From: Methanobacteriota archaeon
Lineage (GTDB): Archaea > Thermoplasmatota > Thermoplasmata > RBG-16-68-12
Assembly (NCBI GenBank): GCA_020029475.1
Contig: JAIBJG010000008.1
Span: 1-36,249 of the forward strand
DNA: 36,249 bases
Reading direction: 5' to 3'
Part shown: positions 2,401 to 17,469 of the stretch, piece after piece
Layout: every line of letters starts with the position of its first letter
How positions within the stretch are numbered: the first letter of the stretch is position 1
Notes under the pieces: model-generated
Seen by the model: only the letters and a program-made list of their open reading frames with translations
Database searches by the model: none
What the model was told of the DNA's origin: nothing
Translations under genes and position numbers: made by a program

Positions 2401-3399
2401 ATGGACGTGCGGGTTCGATACCCGTTTCTCGGACGGAGAACCCAAGGATTCGACATCCGCGCGAAGTGGTTCACCGCCCTCTACGACGTGATCCGCTCAA
2501 GGATCCGGACGGAGGTCCTCCGGCTCTATTACGCCGGGACCTCGGCTGTCGCCGAGCGCGTGTACCGCCTACAGTTGGCGGCGTTCGAACGAGGGAGGGC
2601 AGTCACCCACATCCCGTCTCAGCTGCAGTCGTTCCTCTTGCGGCGTCGGCACTCCGTGCCGACCGTCGTCACGTGCTACGATCTGTCCTTACCCGGGACC
2701 CTCACACGGCTCCCCTTCGCGGACCGGGTCGTCGTCCCCGCCCGCCAGGTCCACGACGCGCTCGTCGAGGCGGTACGTCTGCCCCGGGAGCCCGACGTAG
2801 TCCCGCTCGCGGTCTCCGCGGCGTACCGCCCCGCAGATGTCGGACGTGGGCGGGGGGTGATCCTGTCCGTCGGGACCGAGCAGCCTCGGAAGAACGTGGA
2901 AGGCCTGTTCCGAATCGTCGCTCGAGTCCGCGAATCGATGCCGGTGACGCTGGTGAAGGTCGGGGCGCCCTCGGACGCCCGCCCCCGCCTCCGGAAACTC
3001 GCGACGGGGCTCGGGATCCAGGACCACATCGAGTGGCGGGACTCCGTACCCGACGAGGAACTGATCCAGCTCTACCAGACCGCGGCGGTGACCGTGGTGC
3101 CGTCCTTCCTCGAGGGGTTCTCGATGCCCTGCCTGGAGGCGATGGCGTGCGGGTGTCCGCTCATCGCCTCGGCGATGAGCGCGATCCCGGAGACCGTCGG
3201 GTCCGGAGGCCTTCTCCTCGACCCCCGTGACGAGGAGGCGTGGGCGGACGCGATCCTCCGCGTCCTCGCGGACCCCGCCTTCGCCCGGGACCTCTCCCGC
3301 CGGGGGATTGAGCGCTCCCGGGCGTTCTCCGCGGAACGGAGCGCCTCCAGGCTGATCCAGATCTACGAGGAGATGTGGACGGACCGGGGGTGGACGTGA
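2401..3399 (+). CDS. Glycosyltransferase family 4, second copy in cluster
   Basis: The 332 residues are another GT4-type GT-B enzyme, only distantly similar to its upstream neighbour. Donor-side motifs are SVGTEQPRKNVEGLFRIVA, a WRDSVPDEELIQLYQTA segment and the E-x7-E motif in EGFSMPCLEAMACG (Glu 238 and Glu 246). The ATG at 2401 is chosen because the frame upstream of it lies inside the preceding gene and reads like a shadow. This start leaves a 25-base gap and gives MDVRVRYPFL. The stop is one base before the next start, indicating translational coupling. Together with the flanking genes it probably adds successive sugars to one glycan. Confidence 0.85.
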   Translation: MDVRVRYPFLGRRTQGFDIRAKWFTALYDVIRSRIRTEVLRLYYAGTSAVAERVYRLQLAAFERGRAVTHIPSQLQSFLLRRRHSVPTVVTCYDLSLPGTLTRLPFADRVVVPARQVHDALVEAVRLPREPDVVPLAVSAAYRPADVGRGRGVILSVGTEQPRKNVEGLFRIVARVRESMPVTLVKVGAPSDARPRLRKLATGLGIQDHIEWRDSVPDEELIQLYQTAAVTVVPSFLEGFSMPCLEAMACGCPLIASAMSAIPETVGSGGLLLDPRDEEAWADAILRVLADPAFARDLSRRGIERSRAFSAERSASRLIQIYEEMWTDRGWT

Positions 3400-3400
3400 G

Positions 3401-4051
3401 GTGGCCGCCTCCCCGGATCGCACCCATCTCACGTACGACTACTGGCGGTATGCCGGGCGGGACTTCACGGAGTTCTACGAGGTCCTGTTCGATCGGATGC
3501 GGCCCGCCCCGCCGGTCCTGGAGCTCGGATCCGGGCTCGGCTACTTCCTGGACTGCTGCCGCAGGCACGCCGTGCCCGCCCTCGGGATCGAGTCCTCGGA
3601 AGAGGGGACGCGAGAGGCGGCGAAACGGGGGCTCTCCGTGGTCCGGGCGGACGTCACCGTCCCCTTCCCGTTCCGAGACGAGACCTTCGGCTCCGCGTTC
3701 GCCCACCACGTCCTGGAGCACGTCCCGCTCGAGGGGGAGCGGTCCCTCCTTAGGGAGGTGCGCCGGGTCCTCAAGGCGGGGGGGTTCCTCTTCGTGGTCT
3801 CCCCGAACCCGTACGTGCGGGAGGCCCACGTCGACCCGGACCACGTCAACCTCTTCACGGCCCACCAGCTCGCGGGGGAGCTCCGCGCGGCGGGATTCCG
3901 GAAGGTGAGTCTCGGGACGAACTATTGGCGCCCGTTCTGGGATCCCGGCCTGCGGCTCGGCAGGCTGAGCCGCCTGATGGCCGGGGCCCTCTGGAAGATC
4001 GCGCCGATCGACGGCCTCGCGGGGACCGCGTCCGCGATCGCGTGGAGGTGA
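3401..4051 (+). CDS. Class I SAM-dependent methyltransferase
   Basis: The 216 residues carry methyltransferase_11-type motifs: motif I VLELGSGLGYFLDCC (about residues 40-54), the acidic residue of motif II in GIESSEEGTREAA, and the motif IV/post-IV stretch AFAHHVLEHVPLEGE followed by LLREVRRVLKAGGFLFVV. A start at GTG 3401, one base after the previous stop, puts motif I at the usual distance from the N-terminus. The context of glycosyltransferases and an FkbM-type enzyme suggests it methylates a sugar or sugar-linked acceptor, but the substrate is not visible. Confidence 0.85.
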   Translation: MAASPDRTHLTYDYWRYAGRDFTEFYEVLFDRMRPAPPVLELGSGLGYFLDCCRRHAVPALGIESSEEGTREAAKRGLSVVRADVTVPFPFRDETFGSAFAHHVLEHVPLEGERSLLREVRRVLKAGGFLFVVSPNPYVREAHVDPDHVNLFTAHQLAGELRAAGFRKVSLGTNYWRPFWDPGLRLGRLSRLMAGALWKIAPIDGLAGTASAIAWR

Positions 4052-4137
4052 CCCTCTGGGACCCGCCAGCACGGAGCCATACGTTGAAGGGAAACCCGGA
4101 CGTATCGTGCTCGGGCTCGCGTGAGGGGGAATCCCGG

Positions 4138-4995
4138 GTGCGCTCGAACGGGGATGCGGTCGATGGCCCCGGGTCGTCGGGCGGCCGGGCGCGCAGGTTC
4201 GAAAGGGTCCGGCTCTGGCTCCGGATCCTCTCCCGGCTGAAGGGGCAGGGTCGTCGGATGCGGGTCGGGCTCGTCGCCTCCGCCTTCCTTGACATCGCTC
4301 TTTTCGCGACGGTCCCATCGCGGGCAACCTCTCCCCGGACCTACGTGGCGGGCGTCGTTTCCTCGGATCGGCCCGCCGCACGGTTCCGGGTCCGGTCCGG
4401 GACGGACGACATCTACAACGTGATGCCGCGCCGGGAGGCGGACGTCGACGACTACATCCGCGGGCATCTCGGGTCCGGGGACACGTTCGTCGACGTCGGG
4501 GCGAACGCGGGCTACTATTCCGTCGTGGCGGGGAGGATCGTCGGGCCGCGGGGGAGGGTCGTCTCGATCGAACCCGTACCTGAGACCTTCGAGCTGCTCC
4601 GGGAGAACGTGGCGCTGAACGGGCTCGGCAACGTGGCGACCTTCGCGAACGCCTGCTGGAACGCACGCGAGGGGCTGACGATGACCCTCCCGGGAGGCTA
4701 CTACGGGCTCGCGTCCCTGGCGACCCCGCTCGGGGGCCGGAGGATCCCCGTGGAGGCAATACCCCTCGATGCTCTCACCGCGGACCTGCCGTCCGTCCAG
4801 GTCCTGAAGGTGGATGCGGAGGGCGCGGAGCTCGAGGTGCTCGAGGGGGCGGCGGACACCCTCGCGAAGACGAGGTTCGCCGTCCTCGAGGTCACGCGGA
4901 ACCGGGCCCGGGTGGAGGCCCTCCTCCAGAGGCACTCGTTCTCCATGGAGCGGAGCCGGAACTACCCGTCGTACGTGTTCGCCGCGCGCCGCTGA
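4138..4995 (+). CDS. FkbM-family SAM-dependent methyltransferase
   Basis: FkbM-family enzymes O-methylate hydroxyl groups, often on sugars or polyketides. The SAM-binding motif is FVDVGANAGYYSVVAGRIVG, followed by VVSIEPVPETFELLRENVALN and later VLKVDAEGAELEVLEGA, which is the family signature. I chose GTG 4138 because a purine-rich stretch (GAGGGGGA) lies 8-10 bases upstream, giving 285 residues. ATG 4258 (245 residues) is the main alternative, and the reading frame is open still further upstream into the previous gene. It is the last gene of the apparent glycan operon, and the next promoter (for smc) starts after it. Confidence 0.8.
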   Translation: MRSNGDAVDGPGSSGGRARRFERVRLWLRILSRLKGQGRRMRVGLVASAFLDIALFATVPSRATSPRTYVAGVVSSDRPAARFRVRSGTDDIYNVMPRREADVDDYIRGHLGSGDTFVDVGANAGYYSVVAGRIVGPRGRVVSIEPVPETFELLRENVALNGLGNVATFANACWNAREGLTMTLPGGYYGLASLATPLGGRRIPVEAIPLDALTADLPSVQVLKVDAEGAELEVLEGAADTLAKTRFAVLEVTRNRARVEALLQRHSFSMERSRNYPSYVFAARR

Positions 4996-5050
4996 GGGGG
5001 CGCGGGATCCGGGGATTTGTCAACCCCATGCCTCCGGTTCCCCGCCAAAG

Positions 5051-5100
5051 ATATTTATAGAGTCCCCCGATATTCGGCCTCCGTCCGACGAAGGTCGGAC
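5051..5100 (+). promoter_or_regulatory. smc operon promoter and leader dyad
   Basis: A good archaeal TATA-like box (ATATTTATAG, 5051-5060) is preceded by an A-rich BRE-like run. Transcription would start near 5080-5085. Exactly there lies an inverted repeat, GTCCGAC (5083-5089), four bases, GTCGGAC (5094-5100). It could be an operator over the start site or a 7-bp hairpin at the 5' end of the mRNA. The remaining bases to the ATG at 5169 show nothing else I recognise. Confidence 0.55.
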
Positions 5101-5168
5101 AACCAGAAGGGCCAGGATGGGATGGGCATCCGGTACGCTCAGTCTGCGCCTTCCGCCGCGGTGATGTC

Positions 5169-8100
5169 ATGTTTCTGAAAGAGATCGAGATGGAGAACTT
5201 CAAGTCGTTCGCGGCAAAGGTCCGGGTCCCGTTCCTGCGGGGCTTCACGGCCGTCACGGGGCCGAACGGCTCCGGGAAGTCGAACATCGCGGACGCGATC
5301 CTGTTCGTCCTCGGGCCGAAGAGCGCGAAGGCGATCCGCGCGAAGCGGCTCACAGACCTAATCTGGAACGGCGGGAAGGACCGGAGGGGGTCCACCCACT
5401 GCGAGGTCTCCCTCGTCTTCGACAACGCGGACCGCGCGATCCCGATCGAGGCGGACGAGGTGAAGCTCACCCGCTACGTCGCCCTGTCCCCCGCGGTCCA
5501 GGACGGGTACAACTCGTATTTCTACGTGAACGACCGGAAGGCGACCTTGGACGAGTTCGACAGCCTCCTTGCCCACGCCCGGATCTCCGCGGAAGGGTAC
5601 AACCTCGTCCAGCAGGGGGACATCCAGCGAATCGTCCAGATGTCGGACGCGGACCGCCGGCGGGTCCTCGACAATATCGCGGGGATCACCAAGTTCGACG
5701 ACGACATCGCCCAGGCGAACTCGAAACGGACCCAGACGGAGGACAACCTCGGGCGGATCCAGATCATCCTCGACGAGATCAAGAAGCAGCTCCACCAGCT
5801 CTCCGCGGACCGCGAGGGCGCGCTGAAGTACAGGGAGCTCTCGGACCGGCTGAACCTGGCGAAGGCCCAGCTCGTGTACAAGAACCGGGAGATCATCGAG
5901 CAGGAGATCAACTCCACGAAGGAGCAGCTCGCGAAGTACGGCGCGGAGCGGGAGAAGCTCCTCAGGGAGAAGTCGGGCCTCCAGGACGAGCTGAAGAACG
6001 CGCAGACCCGCCTCGGCGACCTCGAGTCGAGGATCGCGGAGCGCGGCGGGGACGAAGCGAAGCAACTGAAGGGGAAACTCGACGGCCTGCGGATCGAGCG
6101 GGCCCGCGCGACGGACGGGATCGCGACGAGCACGGAGGAGATCAAGAGGCTCCAGGCGGAGATCGCGGAGGCCCAGAGGGAGCGGACCCGGGTCGCGAAG
6201 GAGCTCGAGGCGCTCCAGAAGGAGCGGGGCTCCGTGGAGGCGTCCCTCGGGGACCTGACGGGGGAGCTCGAGGCCGCGGAGCGGGACCTCAAGGCCCTCG
6301 ACGAGACCGCCTCGAAGTCGGACTCGAAGATCCTCCAGATCCAGAAGGAGGTCGTCGCCCTCGACAAGCGGGCGGACGGGGCCGAGGAGAAGACGAAGGC
6401 CCTCATCCTTGAGGGGGACCGGGCGAAGGAGTCCCTGGACCGCCTCCGGAACGAGGTCGTCCAGCTCGAAGACATCCTGAAGACGTACCAACTCGAGCTC
6501 GACGACTCCGAGTTCCAGCTGAAGGAGCTCCGGACGGGGTCCAAGGCCGCCACGAAGAGCCTCGCGAAGCTCCAGGAGGGGTTCTACGCGAAGCGGAAGG
6601 AGGAGCAGGACCTCTCGAAGCAGCAGGGGGAGCTCCAGTCCGCGATCCTCGAGCTCACCCGGCAGTACACCGCGATGAGGGCGGAGGCGGACGTCGCGGA
6701 GAACCTGAAACGCGGCTACTCGACCGCGGTCGCGGGAATCCTCGAGGCCCGGGACACCGGGAGGATCAAGGGGGTCCACGGGACGATCGCGCAGCTCGGC
6801 CACGCGGAGTCGAAGTACGAGACCGCAATCCTCGTCGCGGCGGGAGGCCGGATGCAGGCGATCGTCGTCGACGACGACGCCGTCGCCGCGGAGTGCATCG
6901 ATTACCTCAAGAAGAGCCGGGCGGGACGGGCGACGTTCCTCCCGCTGAGCAAGATGCTCGTGGGCCGTCCCCGCGGGAAGGCGATCCTGGTCGCGAAGGA
7001 GTCGGTGGGGTTCGCGATCGACCTGATCAAGTTTGACGAGAAGTACCGGGACGCGTTCTTCTACGTCCTCGGGGACACGATCGTCGTGGAGACCCTGGAC
7101 CAGGCCCGGAGGTACATGGGCGGGGTCCGGCTCGTCACCCTCGGCGGGGAGATGATCGAGGCGAGCGGCGCGATGATCGGCGGGGACCTCGAGAAGACGC
7201 CCCTCCGGTTCGGCGCCCCCGACCGCCGGGAAATCGACAACGTGTCCGAGAAGCTGCGCCGGGCGACGGAGGAGGCGGACCGGGTCGCCCGGCGTCTCGC
7301 GGACCTCCGGAAGGAGGTCGTGGCCCTGGAGGCGGAGCTGAAGGACGTCGGCGGCCAGACCTCCACCGTGGACGTGAAGGCGTCCGCGCTCGAGACGAAG
7401 CGGCGGGAGTTCACCATGAAGGTCACCGCGATCCGGGAAGACCTGGACGCGAAGACGAAGCGACTCGCGGAGACGGAGAAGACCGCGAGGCGGGTGCAGG
7501 AGGACCTCTCCCGGTTCCAGAAGGAGCTCACCGCCCTGAAGGGCCAGCGGGACGCCCGAAAGAGCGCGGTCCTCGAGGCGGCCCCCCAGGCCGTGTCCGC
7601 GCGCATGAAGGAACTCATGGCAAACAGAACGAAGGCGGGGGACGAGGTCACCGCCGCCCGAGCGAAGATCGAGACCTTGGACGCCCAGGCGAAGGTCCAG
7701 GTCGAGCGCCGCGGGGAGTTCGACCAGAGAATCGAAGGACTACTCGGCCAGAAGGGGGACCACGGGAAGCGCGTGAAGGAGTTCGAATCCTCCCTCCAGA
7801 AGCTCGAGAACGAGATCCGCGGGCTCGAGAAGCTGGAGGCCTCGATGTCGAAGGAGATGCAGGGGCTCCAGTCGGAACGGGACGCCGCGTACAAGGACAA
7901 GACGGAGCTCGAGGGCGAGATCGACAAGCTCGGCCACAAGCTCGAGACGAAGGAGGATTTCGCGACGAACCTCCAGACGGAGCTGCATGCTCAGGAAGAG
8001 AGCCTCGCGAAGGCGCTGGAGGACCTGAAGACCCTCGGCCGCGCGATCGAGGGGAAGCTCCCGCCCCTGGACGAGCTGAAGCGAACGATCTCAGAGTGCG

Positions 8101-8753
8101 ACACGCAGATCCAGGCCCTCGGCCCGATCAACATGCGGGCCCTCGACGACTACGAGGCCCAGGAGAAGCGGTACGCGGAGCTCACGGAGGAGTTCACGCA
8201 GCTCGGGACCCAGCGCCAGGAGCTGATTAACCTCGCGGGCGAGCTCACGGAGAAGAAGAAGGAGGGACTCGGCACGGTGTTCGTCGCGATCAATGAGAAC
8301 TTCAAGCGGGTGTACCGGGAGATCAGCGAAGGCGGGGAGGCGGAGCTCCTCCTCGAGAACGAGAAGGACCCGTTCACGGGCGGACTCGTGATCCGGGCGA
8401 ACCCGTCCCACAAGAAGGTGCTCCGGCTCGAGGCCCTGAGCGGGGGCGAGAAGAGCCTCGTGTCGATGGCGTTCATCTTCGCGATCCAGGAGTACGACCC
8501 GTCGCCGTTCTACCTCCTGGACGAGATCGACCAGAACCTGGACGCGGTGAACGCGGAGCGGGTCGCGCGGATGATCAAGAGGAACTCGAACACGGCCCAG
8601 TTCGTCCAGATCTCCCTCCGGAAGATCACACTGAAGGAGGCGGACCACCTCGTTGGGGTCACGATGACCCCCGCGGGACACTCCGACCTCGTGATGCGGG
8701 TGAACCTGTCCGACGTCGAGGACGAGCGGACCACAGAGGCGGTGGTGGCATGA
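5169..8753 (+). CDS. smc: Chromosome segregation protein SMC
   Basis: The 1194 residues have the full SMC architecture. The head begins with EIEMENFKSFAAK and Walker A GPNGSGKSN (31-39). A first long coiled coil covers about 170-500, a hinge about 515-680 (GVHGTIAQLGHAESKYETAI onward), and a second coiled coil about 690-1030. The C-terminal head has signature LSGGEKSL (from 1090) and Walker B PFYLLDEID (1116-1124). SMC dimers load on DNA, hydrolyse ATP at the heads and compact or individualise chromosomes. Length is normal for the family. ATG 5169 places the conserved N-terminus correctly; ATG 5164 is out of frame. The stop overlaps the scpA start (ATGA), so all three condensin subunits are made from one transcript. 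The segment after Walker B reads DQNLDAVN instead of the more common alanine-rich version, a minor variation. Confidence 0.97.
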   Translation: MFLKEIEMENFKSFAAKVRVPFLRGFTAVTGPNGSGKSNIADAILFVLGPKSAKAIRAKRLTDLIWNGGKDRRGSTHCEVSLVFDNADRAIPIEADEVKLTRYVALSPAVQDGYNSYFYVNDRKATLDEFDSLLAHARISAEGYNLVQQGDIQRIVQMSDADRRRVLDNIAGITKFDDDIAQANSKRTQTEDNLGRIQIILDEIKKQLHQLSADREGALKYRELSDRLNLAKAQLVYKNREIIEQEINSTKEQLAKYGAEREKLLREKSGLQDELKNAQTRLGDLESRIAERGGDEAKQLKGKLDGLRIERARATDGIATSTEEIKRLQAEIAEAQRERTRVAKELEALQKERGSVEASLGDLTGELEAAERDLKALDETASKSDSKILQIQKEVVALDKRADGAEEKTKALILEGDRAKESLDRLRNEVVQLEDILKTYQLELDDSEFQLKELRTGSKAATKSLAKLQEGFYAKRKEEQDLSKQQGELQSAILELTRQYTAMRAEADVAENLKRGYSTAVAGILEARDTGRIKGVHGTIAQLGHAESKYETAILVAAGGRMQAIVVDDDAVAAECIDYLKKSRAGRATFLPLSKMLVGRPRGKAILVAKESVGFAIDLIKFDEKYRDAFFYVLGDTIVVETLDQARRYMGGVRLVTLGGEMIEASGAMIGGDLEKTPLRFGAPDRREIDNVSEKLRRATEEADRVARRLADLRKEVVALEAELKDVGGQTSTVDVKASALETKRREFTMKVTAIREDLDAKTKRLAETEKTARRVQEDLSRFQKELTALKGQRDARKSAVLEAAPQAVSARMKELMANRTKAGDEVTAARAKIETLDAQAKVQVERRGEFDQRIEGLLGQKGDHGKRVKEFESSLQKLENEIRGLEKLEASMSKEMQGLQSERDAAYKDKTELEGEIDKLGHKLETKEDFATNLQTELHAQEESLAKALEDLKTLGRAIEGKLPPLDELKRTISECDTQIQALGPINMRALDDYEAQEKRYAELTEEFTQLGTQRQELINLAGELTEKKKEGLGTVFVAINENFKRVYREISEGGEAELLLENEKDPFTGGLVIRANPSHKKVLRLEALSGGEKSLVSMAFIFAIQEYDPSPFYLLDEIDQNLDAVNAERVARMIKRNSNTAQFVQISLRKITLKEADHLVGVTMTPAGHSDLVMRVNLSDVEDERTTEAVVA

Positions 8754-9691
8754 GCGAGGCGTACGAGACGGTCCTGAACCACCTCCTGTTCCACAAGGCG
8801 CTGATCAGCGAGCACGATGGCGCGGAACGGATCAGCCGCTACGTGTCGATGCTCGGGGAGATCGATCAGGGGATGCACGTCGCCCTGCGGGACCCGTTCG
8901 AGAAGGCGGTCGCCGCGGCGTTCGAGCTCGTGATTGAGAGGCAGCTCGACCCGTGGGACCTGGACATCGCGCAGTTCACGCGGATGTTCCTGGAGAAGGT
9001 CCAGGCGGGCGGGCCCGTGAACTTCGTCACGGCGGGGAAGCTGATCTTCATGGCGTGGTCGATCCTCAAGCTCCAGTCCGACTCCGTCCTCGTGAGCGCG
9101 GCGCCCCCCGTCGAGGAGGCCCCGGCGGACTGGGACTTCGGCGGGCTCCAGGGGTCCGAGGACCTCGACTTCAACGAGGCGGTCCTGGACGCGGGACGGC
9201 TTCCGATCGCCGAGGCGATCCGCCGACCCGGGAGACGGGCCGTCACCCTGATGGAGCTCATGGACGCGTTCGACGACGCCCGGCGGGACGCAGAGATCCA
9301 GCTCCAGCTCGCCGCCCTCCGAGCGCAGGCGGTGAAGTCGTTCGCCCCGAACTTCCACGACAAGGTCCACTCCGAGGACCTGTCCGAGGACATCGGACTC
9401 ACGTGGAGCCGGATCCTCGGATTCAACGGGAACGCGGTGCCGCTGGGCAACCTCGCGACCCCGCGAGACCGGTGGGAGCTGATCACGGTGTTCGTGTCCG
9501 TCCTCTTCCTCGCGAAGATGGAGAAGGTGAAGCTCTGGCAGGAGGCGTACCCCGAGGGCGACATCCTTGTCCAGCGGATCGCCCCGGACGCGTCCCTGAA
9601 CGCGGAGGAGCTCGCCGCGATTCCGGCGGTCGCGCCGACGGCGGCGGGGGGACCCGCGAGTGCCGCGGCAGCACCGGAGGAACTCCCGTGA
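8750..9691 (+). CDS. scpA: Condensin kleisin subunit ScpA
   Basis: The kleisin bridges the SMC heads and binds ScpB. The 313 residues contain the N-terminal family signature PFEKAVAAAFELVIERQLDPWDLDIAQF followed by TAGKLIFMAWSILKLQSD. A Pro/Glu-rich linker follows, then a C-terminal winged-helix region (about 220-280, WELITVFVSVLFLAKMEK). An Ala/Pro-rich tail of about 25 residues is unconserved. The start overlaps the smc stop by four bases (ATGA) and the stop overlaps the scpB start (GTGA), indicating coupled translation. Only the position, length and motifs are seen; the partner interactions are family knowledge. Confidence 0.95.
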   Translation: MSEAYETVLNHLLFHKALISEHDGAERISRYVSMLGEIDQGMHVALRDPFEKAVAAAFELVIERQLDPWDLDIAQFTRMFLEKVQAGGPVNFVTAGKLIFMAWSILKLQSDSVLVSAAPPVEEAPADWDFGGLQGSEDLDFNEAVLDAGRLPIAEAIRRPGRRAVTLMELMDAFDDARRDAEIQLQLAALRAQAVKSFAPNFHDKVHSEDLSEDIGLTWSRILGFNGNAVPLGNLATPRDRWELITVFVSVLFLAKMEKVKLWQEAYPEGDILVQRIAPDASLNAEELAAIPAVAPTAAGGPASAAAAPEELP

Positions 9692-10317
9692 CGGACGAGA
9701 AGGGGATCGTCGAGGCGGCGCTGTTCTCCGCGGGACGACCCGTGTCCGCGGAGGAGCTCGCGCAGAGCACCCGGGTCACGGTCGCAAAGGTCCGGGTCCA
9801 CCTGGAGGAGCTCGCCTCGGATTACGCGGCCCGGTCCAGCGCGGTCGAGGTCGCCGCCGTGGGAGAGAAGTGGACGATGCAGATCCGGATGGAGTACACG
9901 GACCGGGCGCGGGCGTTCGCCCCGCCGGAGATCGAGCGGGACCTGCTGAAGACCGCGGCCCTCGTCGCGTACCACCAGCCCGTCCTCCAAAGCGACCTCG
10001 GGGACATGATCGGCTCGAAGGTGTACGAGCACGTGCAGGCGCTCGCGGGCCTGAACCTCATCAACAAGAGGCCGAGCGGGCGCAGCTTCGAGCTGACGAC
10101 GACCCGCTACTTCGTCGAGTTCTTCGGGATCAAGGCCGCGGACCGGGAGGGGATTCGGCGGCTCCTCGCAGAGAAGGCGGGGGTGAAGTTCACACCGAAG
10201 CCCGACAGGGGCGCCGACGATGGAACCTCCGCGGAAGGTGCGCCCGCCAACGAATCGTCCCAGGGATCGCCGTCTCCGTCACCCGGTTCTGCGGGAGAGC
10301 CGATAACCGGCGGATAG
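9688..10317 (+). CDS. scpB: Condensin accessory subunit ScpB
   Basis: The 209 residues have two winged-helix domains: the first from GIVEAALFSAGRPVSAEELA, the second around DLLKTAALVAYHQPVLQSDL and VYEHVQALAGLNLINKR with the typical TTTRYFVEFFGI ending. ScpB dimers bind the ScpA linker in the SMC complex. The start is GTG 9688, inside the GTGA overlap with scpA; a longer open frame upstream is only a shadow of scpA. The last 30 residues are a disordered Ser/Pro/Gly tail. It ends three bases before the TATA box of the next gene. Confidence 0.95.
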   Translation: MTDEKGIVEAALFSAGRPVSAEELAQSTRVTVAKVRVHLEELASDYAARSSAVEVAAVGEKWTMQIRMEYTDRARAFAPPEIERDLLKTAALVAYHQPVLQSDLGDMIGSKVYEHVQALAGLNLINKRPSGRSFELTTTRYFVEFFGIKAADREGIRRLLAEKAGVKFTPKPDRGADDGTSAEGAPANESSQGSPSPSPGSAGEPITGG

Positions 10318-10320
10318 CGC

Positions 10321-10382
10321 TTAAATAGCATGAGCCTCCTAACGAAATATCAGGTCGCGTCCCCAGTGAGTGAACACCTCAC
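10321..10382 (+). promoter_or_regulatory. Promoter of the giant repeat protein
   Basis: A TATA-like box (TTAAATA, 10321-10327) begins three bases after the scpB stop, giving an expected transcript start near 10350 and a leader of about 55 bases before GTG 10407. The leader holds a short dyad, GTGAG (10366-10370) and CTCAC (10378-10382), of doubtful significance. The downstream gene therefore has its own promoter but could also be reached by read-through from smc-scpAB. Confidence 0.45.
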
Positions 10383-10406
10383 CGCGGCATCCTGGAGTGG
10401 TCCAGC

Positions 10407-13400
10407 GTGAGCGGGTACCTCAAAGACATCGCGCTCCGGAAACAACTCGAGGAGAAGGTACGGGAGGCGACCCGGTCCCGCTCGGACGCGGAGAAGGCCC
10501 TACAGAGCGCGGGCGACCTGATCACATCGGGCCGACGGGTCGACGCCGTCACGACGGAGGCGGACGAGTTACTCGCGGAGGCCACCTCCGCGATGACCGC
10601 GAAGGACTACCGCCTCGCCCTCGACAAGGCCGTCGCCGCGAGGGACAAGGCCCGCCGGATCTACGAGGAGCGGGTGAAGGAAATCGTGAACGCGAGCGCC
10701 AGCCTCGTGACGATGACGAAGGCGCTCGGCTCGGATGTCGTGGAGAACGAGGTCGCGATCACCCGGGCGCGCGAGGCGCTCGGCTCGGAGGACTTCGAGA
10801 CCGCGATCGACCTGGCGAAGAAGGTGTGGAAGCGCCAGGAGAAGGTCCTACACGAGCACATGTCCGGCTCCTTCTCCCGCGCGCAGAGCCTGATCATGGC
10901 CGCGAAGAACCTCGGGCGGGACACGGGCCCCGTCGAGGACCTCCTCTCCCGCGCGCGGTCCGCGATGGAGTCGAACGACTTCGAGCTCGCGATGGGGTTC
11001 ACGAAGGAGTGCCTGGAGACCGTGACGGGTGAGCTCCGCTCGGAGCTCGACCGCTCGATCCTCGACTCCGAGGGACTGATGCGGACCGCGAAGGAGATGG
11101 GCGCGGACGCCACGAAGATGGCCCAGCTCATCGAGAGGGCCCGGGCGGACATGGAGAAGCTCGAATTCGAGAAGGCGTTCAACGCCCTGAAGCAGAGCAA
11201 GGCGGAGGGGGACAAGGCCCTCCAGAAGGGGCTCGAGGGCAAGATCACGGATTTCACCCAGTGGGTCGCGAAGGCGGAGAAGCTCGGGGCGAACACGACC
11301 CCGGCCCGGGCCGCGTTCCGGCACGCGGAGGGCGCGATCCGGGAGAACCGGTACCAGGACGGGGCGACGTTCGCCCGCCAGGGGTTCCAGGCCCTCCAGC
11401 AGGCGCAGTTCCAGCGGGTCCTCCTGATGATGAACCAGAGCCGGGACAAGTTCATCGCGGCGAAGAGCCTCGGGGCGGACCTCGGCGGGCCCTTCGGGCT
11501 CTTCGAGCAGGCCCGCCAGGCCCTCCAGCAGGGGGACTTCGAGGCCGCGGTCGGCGCGGTCCGGAAGGCGGACGCGGATATCGACCGGATCGTATCCGAG
11601 TCCCGGGACGTCGAGGGTTCCGTGCGGGACTTCACGAAGACGATCGCGGAGGCAGAGACCCTGGGGGTCGCGGTCGGGAACGCCCGGCGGCACCTGGACC
11701 GGGCTCGGCAGTCCCTCCAAGCGAAGGATTTCGCGGTCACCCGGGAGTCCGTGAAGAAGGGGCGGGAGGAGCTCGAGCGTGCGGAGTACGACCGCACGAT
11801 GGAGATCGTCGAGAAGACGGAGTTCATCCTGACTTCCGGGGAGCGCCTGGGGGCGGACCTGTCCGAGTCCAGCAAGGCCCTCGAGGAGGCGATCCTCGCG
11901 ACGAAGGAGAAGGACTACCGCCGGGCGACGGAGCTCGCGGTGAAGAGCCGGAACCTCGCGGAGGGCGCCCTCCAGAAGCGGCTCGATGACGGCCTGACGG
12001 GATTGAAGGCCTCCCTCCAGTTCCTCGGGGACGACGCGAACGCGGTCCGCAGCCTCGTCTCGAAGGCGGAGAGCGCCGTCGCGGCGAAGGACATCGAGGG
12101 GGCGTTCGGGTTCCTCGCGGAGGGCCAGAAGGTCTCGGAGAACCGGACGAAGGACAGAGCCACACAGTACCACGAGACCGTCCGCTCCGCGGTGCGGCTG
12201 ATGCAGGATCTCGGCTCCGACGTCGGCGGCCTCGACGGGGTGCTGAAGGAGATGAACGCGGCGATGGCGGACGGCCGGTTCGCGGACGTGATCGGGATGC
12301 GGGAGCGGGTCGGGAAGGACATCGCGGCCGCATCGGAGTCCGTGTTCAACCTCGTCAAGCAGAAGGTCGTGCAAGCGAAGAACATGCGGATCAACATCGA
12401 CGAGATGCGGGAGCTCCTGAAGAGGGCGAAGATGTCCCTCGGGGTCGAGGACGTCGTCGAGGCCCTCCGCCTGATGAAAGAGACGAACGACCGCGCGAAC
12501 AAGGTCCTCGACCTCTACCGCACGACACACAACGCGATCTCGAGCGCCGCGGCCCTCGTCGCGGAGGCGAAGAAGCGGGAGGTCGACGTCACGAAGGTCC
12601 TCGAGATGCTCCTCGAGTCGAAGAAGGCGTTCGAGCGCCTGGACTTCGAGCGGGCCCTGGAGCTCGCGAACCGGTCGAAGGCGGAGACGGAGAAGCTGAT
12701 GGTCCTGTACACGTCCGCGCAGCGCCTGATCTCGAGCCGGGAGAAGCTCGACGTCGCGGGCCGGATGGGGATCGACGCCCCGGACCTCCGGGACCTCTTG
12801 AACGTCGCGAAGGAGGCGATGAAAGCCAAGGACTACGAGAGGGCCCTCCAGCTCTCGGAGCGGGCGGAGAAGGGCCTCACGGACCTGATCTCGGACAAGG
12901 TCGCGAGCCTCATCACCACCGCGGAGGGCGTCCTCTCCGGGATCGAGGGGGCCGCTCTCTCCGCCGTCCAGAACAAGGTCATCCAGGTCCGCAGCCTCGC
13001 GGACAGCCAGCAGCTCGGCGCCGCCGCGGACATGGCGCTCCAGGTGCGGGACGAGGTGGAGAAGCTGAAGCGCACCTGGGAGCAGGCCGGAGTCGCGATG
13101 AAGCGGGCCCGGGACGCGATCGCGGAGGTGGAGACGATGAACCTCGACCCGGCCTCTGCGAAGCGGCTCCTGGAGAAGGCGGACCGGTCGTACAAATCCG
13201 GCCGCTTCGACGAGGCGCTCGACCTCGCGAACAAGGCCAGCTCGGAACTCACGACGGAGACGGAGCAGAACGTCGCGGGCACGATGAAGCGGTTCGAGGA
13301 GTCCATCGACAAGGCGAAGCGGGAGGGCGTGGACACCCGGTCCGCGGAGAAGCTCTTCGAGCGCGCGAAGGAGTTCCTTCGGGAGCGGAAGTTCCGGCAG

Positions 13401-14930
13401 GCCCTCGCGGTCGCGATGCAGTCGGAGAACGAGACGGAGCGGGTCTCCCTGCAGCAGGACATGGCCTCGAAGGCGATCCAGACGATCGAGAAGCGGCTCA
13501 CCGGCTTCGGCCACCCGCTGCCGCAGGTCCAGCAGATCGTGGCGGACGCGAAGGCCGCGTTCCGCACGGGGGACTACGTGAAGGCGCTCGACCTCGCGAT
13601 CCGTGGCGGGGACGAGTTCGGCCGCCGGCGGGAGAGCGCGGAGGATGCGATGGAGGCCCGCACGGGGGCGGAGCGGATCGTCGGCGTCCTCGGGACGATC
13701 GGCGCGCAGGCCGCGCGGACGGAAGGGGCGTACCGGGAGGCGGAGGCGGCCCTCGAACGGGGGGACGCGGACGCGGCCCGAAACGCGTACCAGCAGGTCC
13801 TCGAGGGCGGACTCGCAGCGGCGCGGACCCATCTCACGGAGAGGCTCGCGAAGGCCCGCGGGGTCTCGGACCTCGGGCAGCGCCTCGAGGTCGACGTGGC
13901 CTCGAGCAACAAGAAGTTCTCCGAGTCGCGGGCGCAGATCGAGAGCGAGAACTTCGAGAGCGCGTTCCAGCTCATCGAGGCCGGCCTGAAGGATGCGCGG
14001 GCGGGGATCGCGGCGAAGGTCTCCGACGCCCTGACGAACGCGGAGTCCACGGTCCAGCACGCGAAGCGGATCGGCGCGGACGTCGGGGACGCGGAGGAGC
14101 AGCTGAAGCTCGCGAGCCAGGCGCTCCTCGAGGGGGAGTTCGAGAAGGCGCTGAAGCTCATCGAGATGGGCTCCGAGCGCGTGGAGTCCCGCCGGATGGT
14201 CGAGAAGCGGTTCGTCGAGCTCACGTACAAGGCGGAGTCCACGGTCCGGAACGCGAAGAAGTTCGGGATCGATGTGAAGGAGGCGGAGCGGGCCCTCCAG
14301 ACCTCCATCCAGATCAAGAAGACGGACATCACCCGCGCGATCGCGGCGGCGGAGGACGCGTACCGTCTCGCCTGGGAGGCCGTCGAGGGGTTCGCCCCGA
14401 ACATTCAGGGGAGCCTGGAGGTCGAGGTCCCGCGACTGGACCAGTGGGCGGAGGCGACCCTCGTCCTGCGGAACACCGGGAAGGCCCTGGCGAAGGACGT
14501 GCAGGTCCGGATCCTCGGGGACGCGGAGGTGGAGGGCCTGAAGGGGCTCGCCGCAATCCGCGCGAAGGGGGAGGAACGGCTCCCGCTCCGGATCCGCATG
14601 ACGGCCCCCGGCGTGATCCCCCTCGTGATCCAGGTCTCGAGCCACCGCGTGATGGACGACAAGGAGTACACCCAGGAGATGATCGCGCAGATCGAGGTCG
14701 TCGCCGGCGCTGCGGCGGGGGCGGACGAGAAGAGGGCCCTCGTGGCAGAGTACGAGAGCCGGTGCCCAATCTGCAAGGGCCAGATCAAGAAGGGGTTCAC
14801 GATCGCGAAGTGCTCCTGCGGGCGCGACTTCCACGAGCTGTGCGCGTCCCGCGTCGGGCGGTGCCCCGTCTGCTTCCGGCCCCTGGAAACCGCGGACAAG
14901 AAGAAGAAGCTCAGATTCGACGTCGGTTAG
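10407..14930 (+). CDS. Giant helical-repeat protein with Ig-like and RING-like C-terminal domains
   Basis: I do not recognise this 1507-residue protein as a named family. Residues about 1-1320 are an array of roughly 18-20 units of about 70 residues. Each has a helix, a turn like LGADxxxA, another helix, then xDFExA and a third helix. Examples of the turn are ALGSD, NLGRD, EMGAD, KLGAN, SLGAD, RLGAD, DLGSD, RIGAD, KFGID. This suggests a long TPR-like or spectrin-like solenoid. Residues about 1332-1432 look like a beta-sandwich of the CARDB/NEW3 type (VLRNTGKALAKDVQVRILGD). The end has a cross-brace zinc pattern: C1453, C1456, C1469, C1471, H1476, C1479, C1486, C1489, as in RING fingers. There is no signal peptide or membrane helix, so it is probably cytoplasmic. 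GTG 10407 gives MSGYLKDIALRKQ; no nearby ATG is better. It follows smc-scpAB on the same strand; a role as scaffold near the condensin is inference only. Confidence 0.85.
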   Translation: MSGYLKDIALRKQLEEKVREATRSRSDAEKALQSAGDLITSGRRVDAVTTEADELLAEATSAMTAKDYRLALDKAVAARDKARRIYEERVKEIVNASASLVTMTKALGSDVVENEVAITRAREALGSEDFETAIDLAKKVWKRQEKVLHEHMSGSFSRAQSLIMAAKNLGRDTGPVEDLLSRARSAMESNDFELAMGFTKECLETVTGELRSELDRSILDSEGLMRTAKEMGADATKMAQLIERARADMEKLEFEKAFNALKQSKAEGDKALQKGLEGKITDFTQWVAKAEKLGANTTPARAAFRHAEGAIRENRYQDGATFARQGFQALQQAQFQRVLLMMNQSRDKFIAAKSLGADLGGPFGLFEQARQALQQGDFEAAVGAVRKADADIDRIVSESRDVEGSVRDFTKTIAEAETLGVAVGNARRHLDRARQSLQAKDFAVTRESVKKGREELERAEYDRTMEIVEKTEFILTSGERLGADLSESSKALEEAILATKEKDYRRATELAVKSRNLAEGALQKRLDDGLTGLKASLQFLGDDANAVRSLVSKAESAVAAKDIEGAFGFLAEGQKVSENRTKDRATQYHETVRSAVRLMQDLGSDVGGLDGVLKEMNAAMADGRFADVIGMRERVGKDIAAASESVFNLVKQKVVQAKNMRINIDEMRELLKRAKMSLGVEDVVEALRLMKETNDRANKVLDLYRTTHNAISSAAALVAEAKKREVDVTKVLEMLLESKKAFERLDFERALELANRSKAETEKLMVLYTSAQRLISSREKLDVAGRMGIDAPDLRDLLNVAKEAMKAKDYERALQLSERAEKGLTDLISDKVASLITTAEGVLSGIEGAALSAVQNKVIQVRSLADSQQLGAAADMALQVRDEVEKLKRTWEQAGVAMKRARDAIAEVETMNLDPASAKRLLEKADRSYKSGRFDEALDLANKASSELTTETEQNVAGTMKRFEESIDKAKREGVDTRSAEKLFERAKEFLRERKFRQALAVAMQSENETERVSLQQDMASKAIQTIEKRLTGFGHPLPQVQQIVADAKAAFRTGDYVKALDLAIRGGDEFGRRRESAEDAMEARTGAERIVGVLGTIGAQAARTEGAYREAEAALERGDADAARNAYQQVLEGGLAAARTHLTERLAKARGVSDLGQRLEVDVASSNKKFSESRAQIESENFESAFQLIEAGLKDARAGIAAKVSDALTNAESTVQHAKRIGADVGDAEEQLKLASQALLEGEFEKALKLIEMGSERVESRRMVEKRFVELTYKAESTVRNAKKFGIDVKEAERALQTSIQIKKTDITRAIAAAEDAYRLAWEAVEGFAPNIQGSLEVEVPRLDQWAEATLVLRNTGKALAKDVQVRILGDAEVEGLKGLAAIRAKGEERLPLRIRMTAPGVIPLVIQVSSHRVMDDKEYTQEMIAQIEVVAGAAAGADEKRALVAEYESRCPICKGQIKKGFTIAKCSCGRDFHELCASRVGRCPVCFRPLETADKKKKLRFDVG

Positions 14931-16486
14931 GCGAGACGGCCGACCCGGGCCTCCACGACCTCCGCGATCTCCCCCGCCCGCATCATCCCCACGACCCGGT
15001 CGATGTCCCCGGACGTCGAGCGGTCCGACGTGAGCCGCGGGATCGACTTCCGGATCAGCCGGTGCGCGAACCGCGGGCCGAGCCCCGCCTTCAGCGGCTT
15101 CCGGAACTCGAGGCCCTGGGCCCCGCACAGGTACTCGATCGCGACGACGCGGCGGGCGTTCTCCAGGATGTGACGGGCCTTCAACGCCGCGCCCTGGCCC
15201 ATGGAGTTGTGGTCCTCCTGGTTCGCAGACGCGGGGATCGAGTCCGCGGACGCAGGGTGCGCGTACACCTTGTTCTCGGACGCGAGGGCGGCGGCGGTGT
15301 ACTGGAGGACCATCATCCCGCTCTGCAGCCCCCCGTGTTCCGTCAGGAACGGCGGGAGCTCGCTGAGCTGGGGGTCCACGAGCCGTGCGGTCCGTCGCTC
15401 GGAGAACGCGCCGAGGACCGTGAGCCCGAGACCCAGGAAGTCGAGGGCCATCGCGAGGCTCTGGCCGTGGAAGTTCCCCCCGCTCAGGCTCTCCCCGGTC
15501 TCCGGGAAGATCAGGGGGTTGTCCGTCGCGGAGTTGATCTCGATCTCCAGGACCTGGCGGGCGTAGTGGATCGACTCGAAGCAGGCGCCGAGGACCTGCG
15601 GGATGCACCGGAGCGAGTACGGGTCCTGGACACGGTGCGGGCCCTTGTGGCTCGTCACGATCTCGCTGTCCTGGAGGAGCTTCGTCATGTTCCCCGCCAC
15701 GAGGTGCTGCCCGACCTGCTTCTTGAGGCGGGAGAGCCGCTCGTCGAACGGCACGGGACTTCCCCGGAGAGCCTCGAAGCTCATCGACGCCGCGATCTCC
15801 GAATCCTTGAGGAGCGCGAGGGCGTCCGTGACGAGGAGGCACCCGAGTCCCGCCATCACCGCGGTGCCGTTCAGGATCGCGAGGCCCTCCTTCGCCTCGA
15901 GCCGGAGCGGGGTGAGCCCCACGGACCGGAGCGCGGCCGCTCCCGCCATCCGCTTCTCCCCCACGAACGCCTCCCCCTCCCCGATGATCACGAGCGCGAT
16001 GTGGGCGAGGGGGGCGAGGTCCCCGCTCGCGCCGAGGGAGCCCCTCGACGGGACCACGGGGTGGACGCCGTGGTTCAGCATCTTCAGGAGGAGCTCGACG
16101 ACCTCGGGCCGGACGCCGGAGTACCCCTTCGCGAGAGCGTTCGCCCGGATCAGCATCGACGCCCGGACGTCGTCCACGTGGAGGGGCGGGCCCGCCCCCG
16201 CCGCGTGGCTCCTCACGAGGTTCTCCTGGAGGCGGAGGAGGTCTCCCTTCGAGACCGGCACGTGCTCGAGCTGCCCGAAGCCCGTCGTCACCCCGTACAC
16301 GGGCCGACCGCTCTCGACGATCTTGTGCAGGGCCGCGTGGCACGCCTGGACCCGCCGGAGCCCGAGATGGCTGAGCTTCACGGGTTCCCCGCCCCGGGCG
16401 ACCCGGACGACCTCCTCGACGGTAAGCGAGTCCCCATCGATCGCGAGCAGCGCACGTCCCCCGGGCGGCGATGGGACGCGCGCCAT
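14927..16486 (-). CDS. hutH: Histidine ammonia-lyase
   Basis: HutH deaminates L-histidine to urocanate, the first step of histidine breakdown, in the cytoplasm. The 519 residues carry the MIO-forming triad in GSLGASGDLAPLAH, the family segments YGVTTGFGQLEHVPV and QDPYSLRCIPQVLGACFES, NSATDNPLIF, and FHGQSLAMALDFL. Length is normal. ATG 16486 is preferred; a GTG 12 codons upstream (16522) would add a poorly conserved extension. The stop overlaps the stop of the giant repeat gene tail-to-tail by four bases (14927-14930). No other hut genes are in the window. Related MIO enzymes (phenylalanine or tyrosine ammonia-lyase) share these motifs, but the overall sequence reads as HutH. Confidence 0.9.
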   Translation of the reverse strand: MARVPSPPGGRALLAIDGDSLTVEEVVRVARGGEPVKLSHLGLRRVQACHAALHKIVESGRPVYGVTTGFGQLEHVPVSKGDLLRLQENLVRSHAAGAGPPLHVDDVRASMLIRANALAKGYSGVRPEVVELLLKMLNHGVHPVVPSRGSLGASGDLAPLAHIALVIIGEGEAFVGEKRMAGAAALRSVGLTPLRLEAKEGLAILNGTAVMAGLGCLLVTDALALLKDSEIAASMSFEALRGSPVPFDERLSRLKKQVGQHLVAGNMTKLLQDSEIVTSHKGPHRVQDPYSLRCIPQVLGACFESIHYARQVLEIEINSATDNPLIFPETGESLSGGNFHGQSLAMALDFLGLGLTVLGAFSERRTARLVDPQLSELPPFLTEHGGLQSGMMVLQYTAAALASENKVYAHPASADSIPASANQEDHNSMGQGAALKARHILENARRVVAIEYLCGAQGLEFRKPLKAGLGPRFAHRLIRKSIPRLTSDRSTSGDIDRVVGMMRAGEIAEVVEARVGRLA

Positions 16487-16509
16487 TAAGGCTTTGCGCG
16501 GGTCGCCCC

Positions 16510-17469
16510 ATGGAGGCGACACCCGAAAAGGTTCATAGCGGCACCCCCGATTCGGCGGGCGTGCAGATCGTGTTCCTGGGGACGAGCGGGTCGTGGCCGA
16601 CCCCGAAGCGGAACGTGTCCGCGGTCGCCGTGAAGCGGGGGCCTGAGGTCCTCCTGTTCGACTGCGGCGAGGGCACGCAGCGGCAGTTCATGCTCTCGAA
16701 GCTGTCGTTCATGCAGACCTCGAGGGTCTTCCTCACGCACTTCCACGGGGACCACTTCCTCGGCCTCCCCGGGCTCGTCCAGTCGATGTCGATGAACGGA
16801 CGGGAGAGGGAGCTCTTCGTGCACGGGCCCGCGGGGACGGAGGATCTCGTACGTGCCCTCGTGAACATCGGCCACTTCGCCCCCGCGTACTCCGTCGTCG
16901 CGAAGGGGCTGAAGGGCGGGGATGCGGTGGATTGCGGGGAGTACGTCGTCCGGGCGGTCGAGACGTCCCACGCGGTCCCGTCCGTCGGGTACGTCCTCGA
17001 GGAGGCGACCCGCCCGGGACGGTTCAACCTCGAGAAGGCGAAAGCCCTCGGGGTCCCGGAAGGCCCGCTGTTCAGCCGCCTCCAGGAGGGGAACGCCGTG
17101 AGCGTCGGCGGTCGGACGGTCGCGCCGGAGATGGTCCTCGGCCCGCCCCGCCGGGGACGGAAGATCGTGTACACCGGGGACACGCTCCCGTCGGACCGCG
17201 TCCTCGAGGCGTCCCGGAACGCGGACGTACTGATCCACGACGCGACCGCGGACACCGCGCTGGAGGAGAAGGCGAACCGGTACGGCCACTCCACGGGGCG
17301 TCAGGCCGCGGAGATCGCGCGGGACGCGGGGGTGCGGACCTTGATCCTCACCCACGTGAGCCCACGGTACGAGGACACGTCGACGATCCTCTCGGAGGCG
17401 AAGGCGGTGTTCCCGAACACGTACATGGCGGAGGATTTCTTCGAGTACGAGGTGCCGTACCCGGAGTGA
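16510..17469 (+). CDS. rnz: Ribonuclease Z (tRNA 3'-processing endonuclease)
   Basis: RNase Z cuts precursor tRNAs after the discriminator base, which is needed here because the tRNA gene in this window lacks CCA. The 319 residues show the metallo-beta-lactamase fold: VFLGTSGSWPTPKRN, FDCGEGTQRQ, the zinc motif HFHGDHFLGLPGL, ETSHAVPSVGYVLEE, IVYTGDTLPS and LILTHVSPRY. ATG 16510 is given as start, but GTG 16561 (VQIVFLG) would match the usual short family N-terminus and would sit about 25 bases after an AT-richer patch (16527-16538), giving a leaderless mRNA of 302 codons. The gene is divergent from hutH and convergent with the HTH-CBS gene, four bases apart. Confidence 0.93.
   Translation: MEATPEKVHSGTPDSAGVQIVFLGTSGSWPTPKRNVSAVAVKRGPEVLLFDCGEGTQRQFMLSKLSFMQTSRVFLTHFHGDHFLGLPGLVQSMSMNGRERELFVHGPAGTEDLVRALVNIGHFAPAYSVVAKGLKGGDAVDCGEYVVRAVETSHAVPSVGYVLEEATRPGRFNLEKAKALGVPEGPLFSRLQEGNAVSVGGRTVAPEMVLGPPRRGRKIVYTGDTLPSDRVLEASRNADVLIHDATADTALEEKANRYGHSTGRQAAEIARDAGVRTLILTHVSPRYEDTSTILSEAKAVFPNTYMAEDFFEYEVPYPE

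Follow-up and report, generated by a model that had tools for sequence, protein, structure and literature searches.

The window, that is, the whole analysed stretch of 36,249 nucleotides (contig C5), belongs to a metagenome bin of 1.94 Mb and 91% completeness whose nearest named relatives are Thermoplasmata bins from soil and groundwater. Its features are summarized in Table 1 together with related loci of other families. The long open reading frame had been put forward in a preliminary description as a giant gene lying directly downstream of smc, scpA and scpB. Both points held: an orthologue of near-constant length occurs throughout the order, and profile matches were obtained for all three upstream genes. 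An scpB assignment to positions 9660-10328 was discarded as the wrong frame, the SMC_ScpB match being located in the frame that ends at 10317. The giant protein matched none of the PADLOC defence families.

Table 1. Features at the giant-gene locus of the window and at related loci (positions without a locus label refer to the window).
Feature	Position	Strand	Evidence and remarks
smc, condensin ATPase	5169..8753	+	TIGR02169, E=1e-284
scpA	8750..9691	+	PF02616, E=7.3e-06
scpB	9688..10317	+	PF04079 (SMC_ScpB), E=7.8e-33; GTG start overlaps scpA stop
TATA-like CTTAAATA	10320..10327	+	inside the 89-base scpB-giant gap
giant gene, repeat-CARDB-RING protein	10407..14930	+	GTG start, 1507 aa; orthologues of near-constant length
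TPR-like repeat array, residues 27-1327, 21 units x 62 aa	10485..14387	+	repeat profile, AlphaFold, TPR profile match
CARDB/ear-like beta-sandwich, eight strands, residues ~1333-1432	14403..14702	+	AlphaFold, Foldseek, Pfam CARDB in relatives
C4HC3 RING domain, residues 1453-1489	14763..14873	+	alignments, AlphaFold, Foldseek, sequence profiles
basic C-terminal tail KKKKLRFDVG	14898..14927	+	local form of K[KR][VIL]AL[KR][IF]-stop of other families
hutH, histidine ammonia-lyase	14927..16522	-	convergent, 4-base overlap with the end of the giant gene; conserved neighbour
f34 operons E1 - giant - Ubl - E2 - JAMM	L238:2753-15066; L239:~2800-15201		all genes on one strand
f12 Ubl-E2 fusion loci	L171:6833-7501; L172:7911-8627; L187:6288-7004; L233-L237		divergent to giant gene

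The repeat structure of the giant protein was determined with an iterated self-profile. This analysis revealed units with the consensus RVEEALTKAESLVAEAKRLGADVGEAEELLEEARAALEEGDFERALDLAEKGRKEAEKALEER, and 20 of the 21 scored 1e-11 or better; composition shuffles of the protein gave a mean of 1.7 weak matches. The repeats first described as 18-20 units of about 70 residues are therefore real, and their number and period had to be corrected. AlphaFold, applied to residues 1000-1440 (mean pLDDT 88.6), predicts for each unit a long helix of about 40 residues and a short one of about 15. The orthologue profile matched consensus TPR superhelix proteins at 2.8e-11. TPR proteins likewise have two helices per unit, but their period is 34 residues and not 62; the consensus unit hit Pfam TPR_2 and TPR_4 below the cut-off, and none of the Pfam TPR families exceeded its threshold with the giant repeats. 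Three further proteins with 62-residue repeats are encoded in the same genome (L016 on contig C96, L017 on C50 and L019 on C26). The C96 protein additionally carries CARDB and DUF5915 domains and has relatives that grow to 2000-2500 residues, and the C50 protein bears an N-terminal zinc ribbon.

The beta-sandwich-like segment that had been noticed behind the repeats was modelled with a pLDDT of about 88. Its Foldseek matches include the CARDB domain of PF1109 (3idu) and adaptor ears. The window protein itself gave no direct Pfam CARDB match. The CARDB family was detected above its cut-off in the C96 paralogue (4.4e-7) and weakly in the homologue of family f34 (0.0011). The fold match to 3idu and these matches in relatives place the predicted domain among the CARDB-type Ig-like sandwiches.

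The C-terminal domain contains exactly the eight cysteine and histidine residues that had been named from the sequence (C1453, C1456, C1469, C1471, H1476, C1479, C1486 and C1489), spaced C-x2-C-x12-C-x-C-x4-H-x2-C-x6-C-x2-C. Of 18 aligned orthologues of the order, 17 possess the domain, and all 17 conserve these ligands; the eighteenth (G031) stops before it. The ligands were also found in 43 of 43 domains of a wider set (A2), an invariance that is partly due to construction because this set was selected with a pattern demanding them. The core of the domain was modelled with a pLDDT of 94-97. Foldseek had been proposed beforehand as the test of the postulated cross-brace RING fold. The top 50 PDB matches were all proteins or complexes with RING domains, for the most part E3 ligases, with probabilities of 0.89-1.00, a best E of 1.6e-3 and a TMq of about 0.6. 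A sequence profile of the domain matched the RING fingers of Ark2C/RNF165 over the whole domain at 3e-6 to 8e-6. Among the best zinc-finger matches was also Prok-RING_1 (PF14446), with E=0.0004 and 20.7 bits at a cut-off of 29.1; in the f34 homologue it reached 2e-4. Since the PDB matches of the model and the sequence profile both point to a RING, a plain zinc ribbon was rejected. Predicted fold and sequence profiles agree independently, and the identity of the domain as a RING is well supported.

The E3 hallmarks of this RING, as judged from the alignments, are incomplete. Two positions that contact E2 in RING E3 ligases are retained in the window protein, namely Ile1455 before the second cysteine and Pro1487 in the last CPxC; Ile or Val occurs at the former position in 26 and Pro at the latter in 30 of the 43 domains. 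The tryptophan of the E2 contact is absent from all 43 domains compared, and none of them has the linchpin Arg or Lys directly behind the last cysteine (R1491 of the window protein sits at +2). For the E3-like srfp of Caldiarchaeum subterraneum it was reported that mutation of the equivalent residues I30, W58 or R69 impairs activity (PMC5654768). Three other proteins encoded in the genome of the window (L005 on C18, L006 on C75 and L007 on C119) carry related RING-like domains: a DUF835 membrane protein and, with the domain at the C-terminus, an exosortase/archaeosortase-like protein and an OppF-like ABC ATPase.

The giant protein ends in a short basic tail. Its more general form, K[KR][VIL]AL[KR][IF], is seen in giant homologues from many families of the class, where it persists even after linkers of roughly 70-100 residues. 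A scan of 13 genomes for this pattern gave seven matches, each at the terminus of a giant gene, and the idea of a tag shared with other proteins was therefore rejected. As a peptide that binds a partner, the tail is a good candidate. On the upstream side, a TATA-like box recurs in most scpB-giant gaps of the order, which suggests a separate promoter for the giant gene.

The C-terminal part of the protein was matched in each of the 37 genomes sampled from the order, nearly all of which show one giant gene of about 1500 residues where complete. Of 150 genomes of the class, 92 matched the full profile with an E of 1e-30 or better, and their complete genes usually encode 1430-1630 residues. A single copy of near-constant length is found throughout the order and in the majority of the families of the class. 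One contig filed in an Actinobacteria bin (L127, VAYX01000188.1) encodes a giant protein of 89% identity and is probably mis-binned.

Loci of the order were taken as testable when about 2 kb or more could be read upstream of the giant gene. Of these 27 loci, 26 have the arrangement smc-scpA-scpB-giant followed by convergent hutH; the sole exception is G003 (L065). At these loci hutH is as constant a neighbour as smc-scpA-scpB. The linkage to smc, for which a survey across the Thermoplasmatota had been proposed, holds for the order of the window and is not a property of the whole family, as 39 of 40 fetched loci of other families lack an smc or scp gene near the giant. The exception is the distant genus g28 of family f15, in which the giant gene is convergent to scpB-scpA-smc, G143 (by coordinates) and L240 included. 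Outside the order and g28, the distance between giant and smc genes sharing a contig ranged from about 96 kb to more than 900 kb in the cases compared. A conserved linkage of the kind expected for a condensin accessory factor is thus specific to the order plus g28, and an involvement with condensin is suggested only by the gene order at the level of the order; the proposed action at the chromosome or division site is inference. In G022 the smc gene contains an intein (PF14890, 1.7e-20) in its Walker A region (L076:8964-13166). Histidine-degradation-like genes adjoin the giant in several families, as hutH in f1-f6 and f18 and as a formiminotransferase-like gene in f8, f14 and f23; L163 is among these loci.

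In two genomes of family f34 (G169 and G180, two genera of the same phylum and another class) the giant homologue is part of an operon encoding a ubiquitin-like (Ubl) conjugation system. The homologues are open frames of 3155 and 3198 residues with 32-35 repeats and the CARDB and RING domains at the end, and their RING has 23 of 41 residues identical in common with that of the window. The E1 of L238 was identified as ThiF (3.2e-47), and the GTG start of the giant gene coincides with its stop. The Ubl terminates in PDPEGG plus one residue, the E2 shows an HPN..C motif (UQ_con, 2.4e-15), and the JAMM protease matched JAB (2.6e-10). PADLOC assigned E1 and JAMM to generic E1-E2/JAB models; the f34 E1 gave a weak match to BilD as well. 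Directly upstream of the operon in L238 lies a gene for a PKD/cadherin-like protein of 962 residues with its own C-terminal RING-like domain.

A second association was observed in family f12, where the giant gene and a UBC gene lie side by side in divergent orientation in seven genomes of three genera. The UBC genes inspected carry an N-terminal Ubl-like part and represent Ubl-E2 fusions. Genus g15 has a cysteine at or close to the active site, which g26 and g57 lack. Genes for a small CDC48_N-like protein and for Trk-type potassium uptake are found close to three of these loci (L171, L172 and L187). Within the class, UQ_con E2 genes were found in 66 of 150 genomes, where inspected mostly inside E1-Ubl-E2-JAMM clusters. 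Compact operons of this type are widespread in Thermoplasmata relatives (L199-L202 of f4 and f6, and L205-L212). The operon of f34 is the strongest functional clue for the giant family; since it occurs in one family and two genera, it could be lineage-specific. The link to Ubl modification that had been suspected is strongly supported by these relatives, and their system is of the E1-E2 type instead of the SAMP/Urm1 type that had been considered.

The locus of the window does not belong to such an operon, and the link does not extend to an E2 in its own lineage. In order to guard against divergence, the PF00179 search was backed by a local E2 profile, which recovered nine of nine E2-bearing relatives at about 1e-76 or better. 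With this profile no E2 was found at E<=0.1 in 27 genomes of the window's family and its three neighbours (f1, f2, f3 and f5), an absence that is no proof because the genomes are incomplete metagenome bins. A related JAMM was likewise not found in these four families. A cognate E2 is present in the families f4, f6, f8, f12, f17, f20, f21, f23, f26 and f28; a RING tail occurs without E2 in f1-f3, f7, f9, f18 and f25, and an E2 without RING tail in f13 and f24. RING and E2 presence thus show no association across families, as would be expected if E2 was lost repeatedly, if the RING has a docking role, or both. With neither E2 nor related JAMM detected, the RING of the window's lineage cannot be filed as that of an active E3.

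On balance we lean slightly towards an E3-type scaffold family that lost its E2 partner in the lineage of the window and was kept there as a docking scaffold beside condensin. This reading builds on the computed architecture, the RING-family likeness in fold and sequence, the distribution, the f34 operon membership and the f12 Ubl-E2 pairing. The giant would be a cytosolic scaffold in which a superhelical arm of TPR-like hairpins, presumably binding clients, is followed by the ear-like sandwich, the RING and the basic tail. The ancestral task of the family was most likely E3-like, with the RING docking the E2~Ubl of an E1-Ubl-E2-JAMM cascade; such an origin is supported by the f34 operon and the divergent pairing in f12. 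As E2 and related JAMM are undetectable in the lineage of the window, the RING is there most likely a docking or assembly module and not a working ligase. The gene would have settled beside smc-scpAB, probably under its own promoter, from where its product might act on condensin.

Alternatively, the protein may be a purely structural scaffold whose RING serves family-wide as a zinc-stabilized docking or dimerization module, its place in the f34 operon being incidental. The persistence of the RING where E2 is absent, the missing tryptophan and linchpin, and the similar zinc domains on the archaeosortase-like, OppF-like and DUF835 proteins are in line with this idea. We nevertheless regard it as rather unlikely, because the giant is encoded between E1 and Ubl in L238 and L239, its start coinciding with the E1 stop in L238, because it is divergent to Ubl-E2 in f12, and because E3 RINGs are its nearest relatives by structure and sequence. 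In Haloferax, SAMP conjugation proceeds without a classical E2. MsrA-dependent Ubl modification is reported in PMC5587910. A non-homologous or E2-independent transfer of this SAMP-like, E1-direct kind, still served by the RING in the lineage of the window, would explain the persistence of the zinc ligands, Ile1455 and Pro1487 without E2; no candidate partner was found near the giant gene, and this explanation appears clearly improbable. A long shot is the bolder version of the E3 reading, a Thermoplasmatota class of giant RING E3s of 1500-3200 residues that unite substrate receptor and E2-docking RING, with the order of the window still conjugating Ubl through an unrecognized partner and regulating SMC-ScpAB at the chromosome. 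That an active E3 or modifier acts on condensin or the division site in the organism itself is very improbable, as the gene order and the second adjacency in g28 are outweighed by the undetected E2, the smc-free loci of other families with their large distances, the equally constant hutH and the TATA-like box behind scpB.

Among known proteins, the E3-type scaffold favoured here is close in its RING to the RING-H2 E3 ligases Ark2C/RNF165, RNF12 and praja-1, with which it shares the fold (Foldseek probability 1.00) and a profile match over the whole domain; it differs from them in its C4HC3 spacing, the missing linchpin and the host protein. Prok-RING_1 is similar enough to rank among its best zinc-finger matches, but the score remains under the curated cut-off, and the giant domain forms the C-terminal tip of a repeat array. 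To our knowledge, the archaeal ubiquitin-operon E3-like proteins characterized to date are small RING fingers. Like the f34 homologue, srfp is a RING protein of an archaeal operon that also comprises E1, Ub and E2, with a JAMM close by; it has an Ile before the second cysteine and was likewise noted for displaced third and fourth ligands. It is small, and its W58 and R69 are important for activity (PMC5654768). In contrast, the RING described here tips a repeat protein of 1500-3200 residues, has neither tryptophan nor linchpin, and in the lineage of the window persists without a detectable E2. Searches of open-access literature returned no account of the giant protein or of an E1-Ubl-E2-JAMM operon in this phylum. 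New beyond the preliminary description are the giant homologue within a ubiquitin-like operon in two genomes of another class and the f12 Ubl-E2 pairing. Lineages that keep the RING giant after the E2 is gone offer a natural experiment, and the family would be a new subject for how ubiquitin ligases acquired substrate choice. A conserved giant that joins a TPR-like arm to a RING and is encoded within an E1-Ubl-E2-JAMM operon would represent a simple prokaryotic analogue of the multidomain substrate-receptor E3 ligases.
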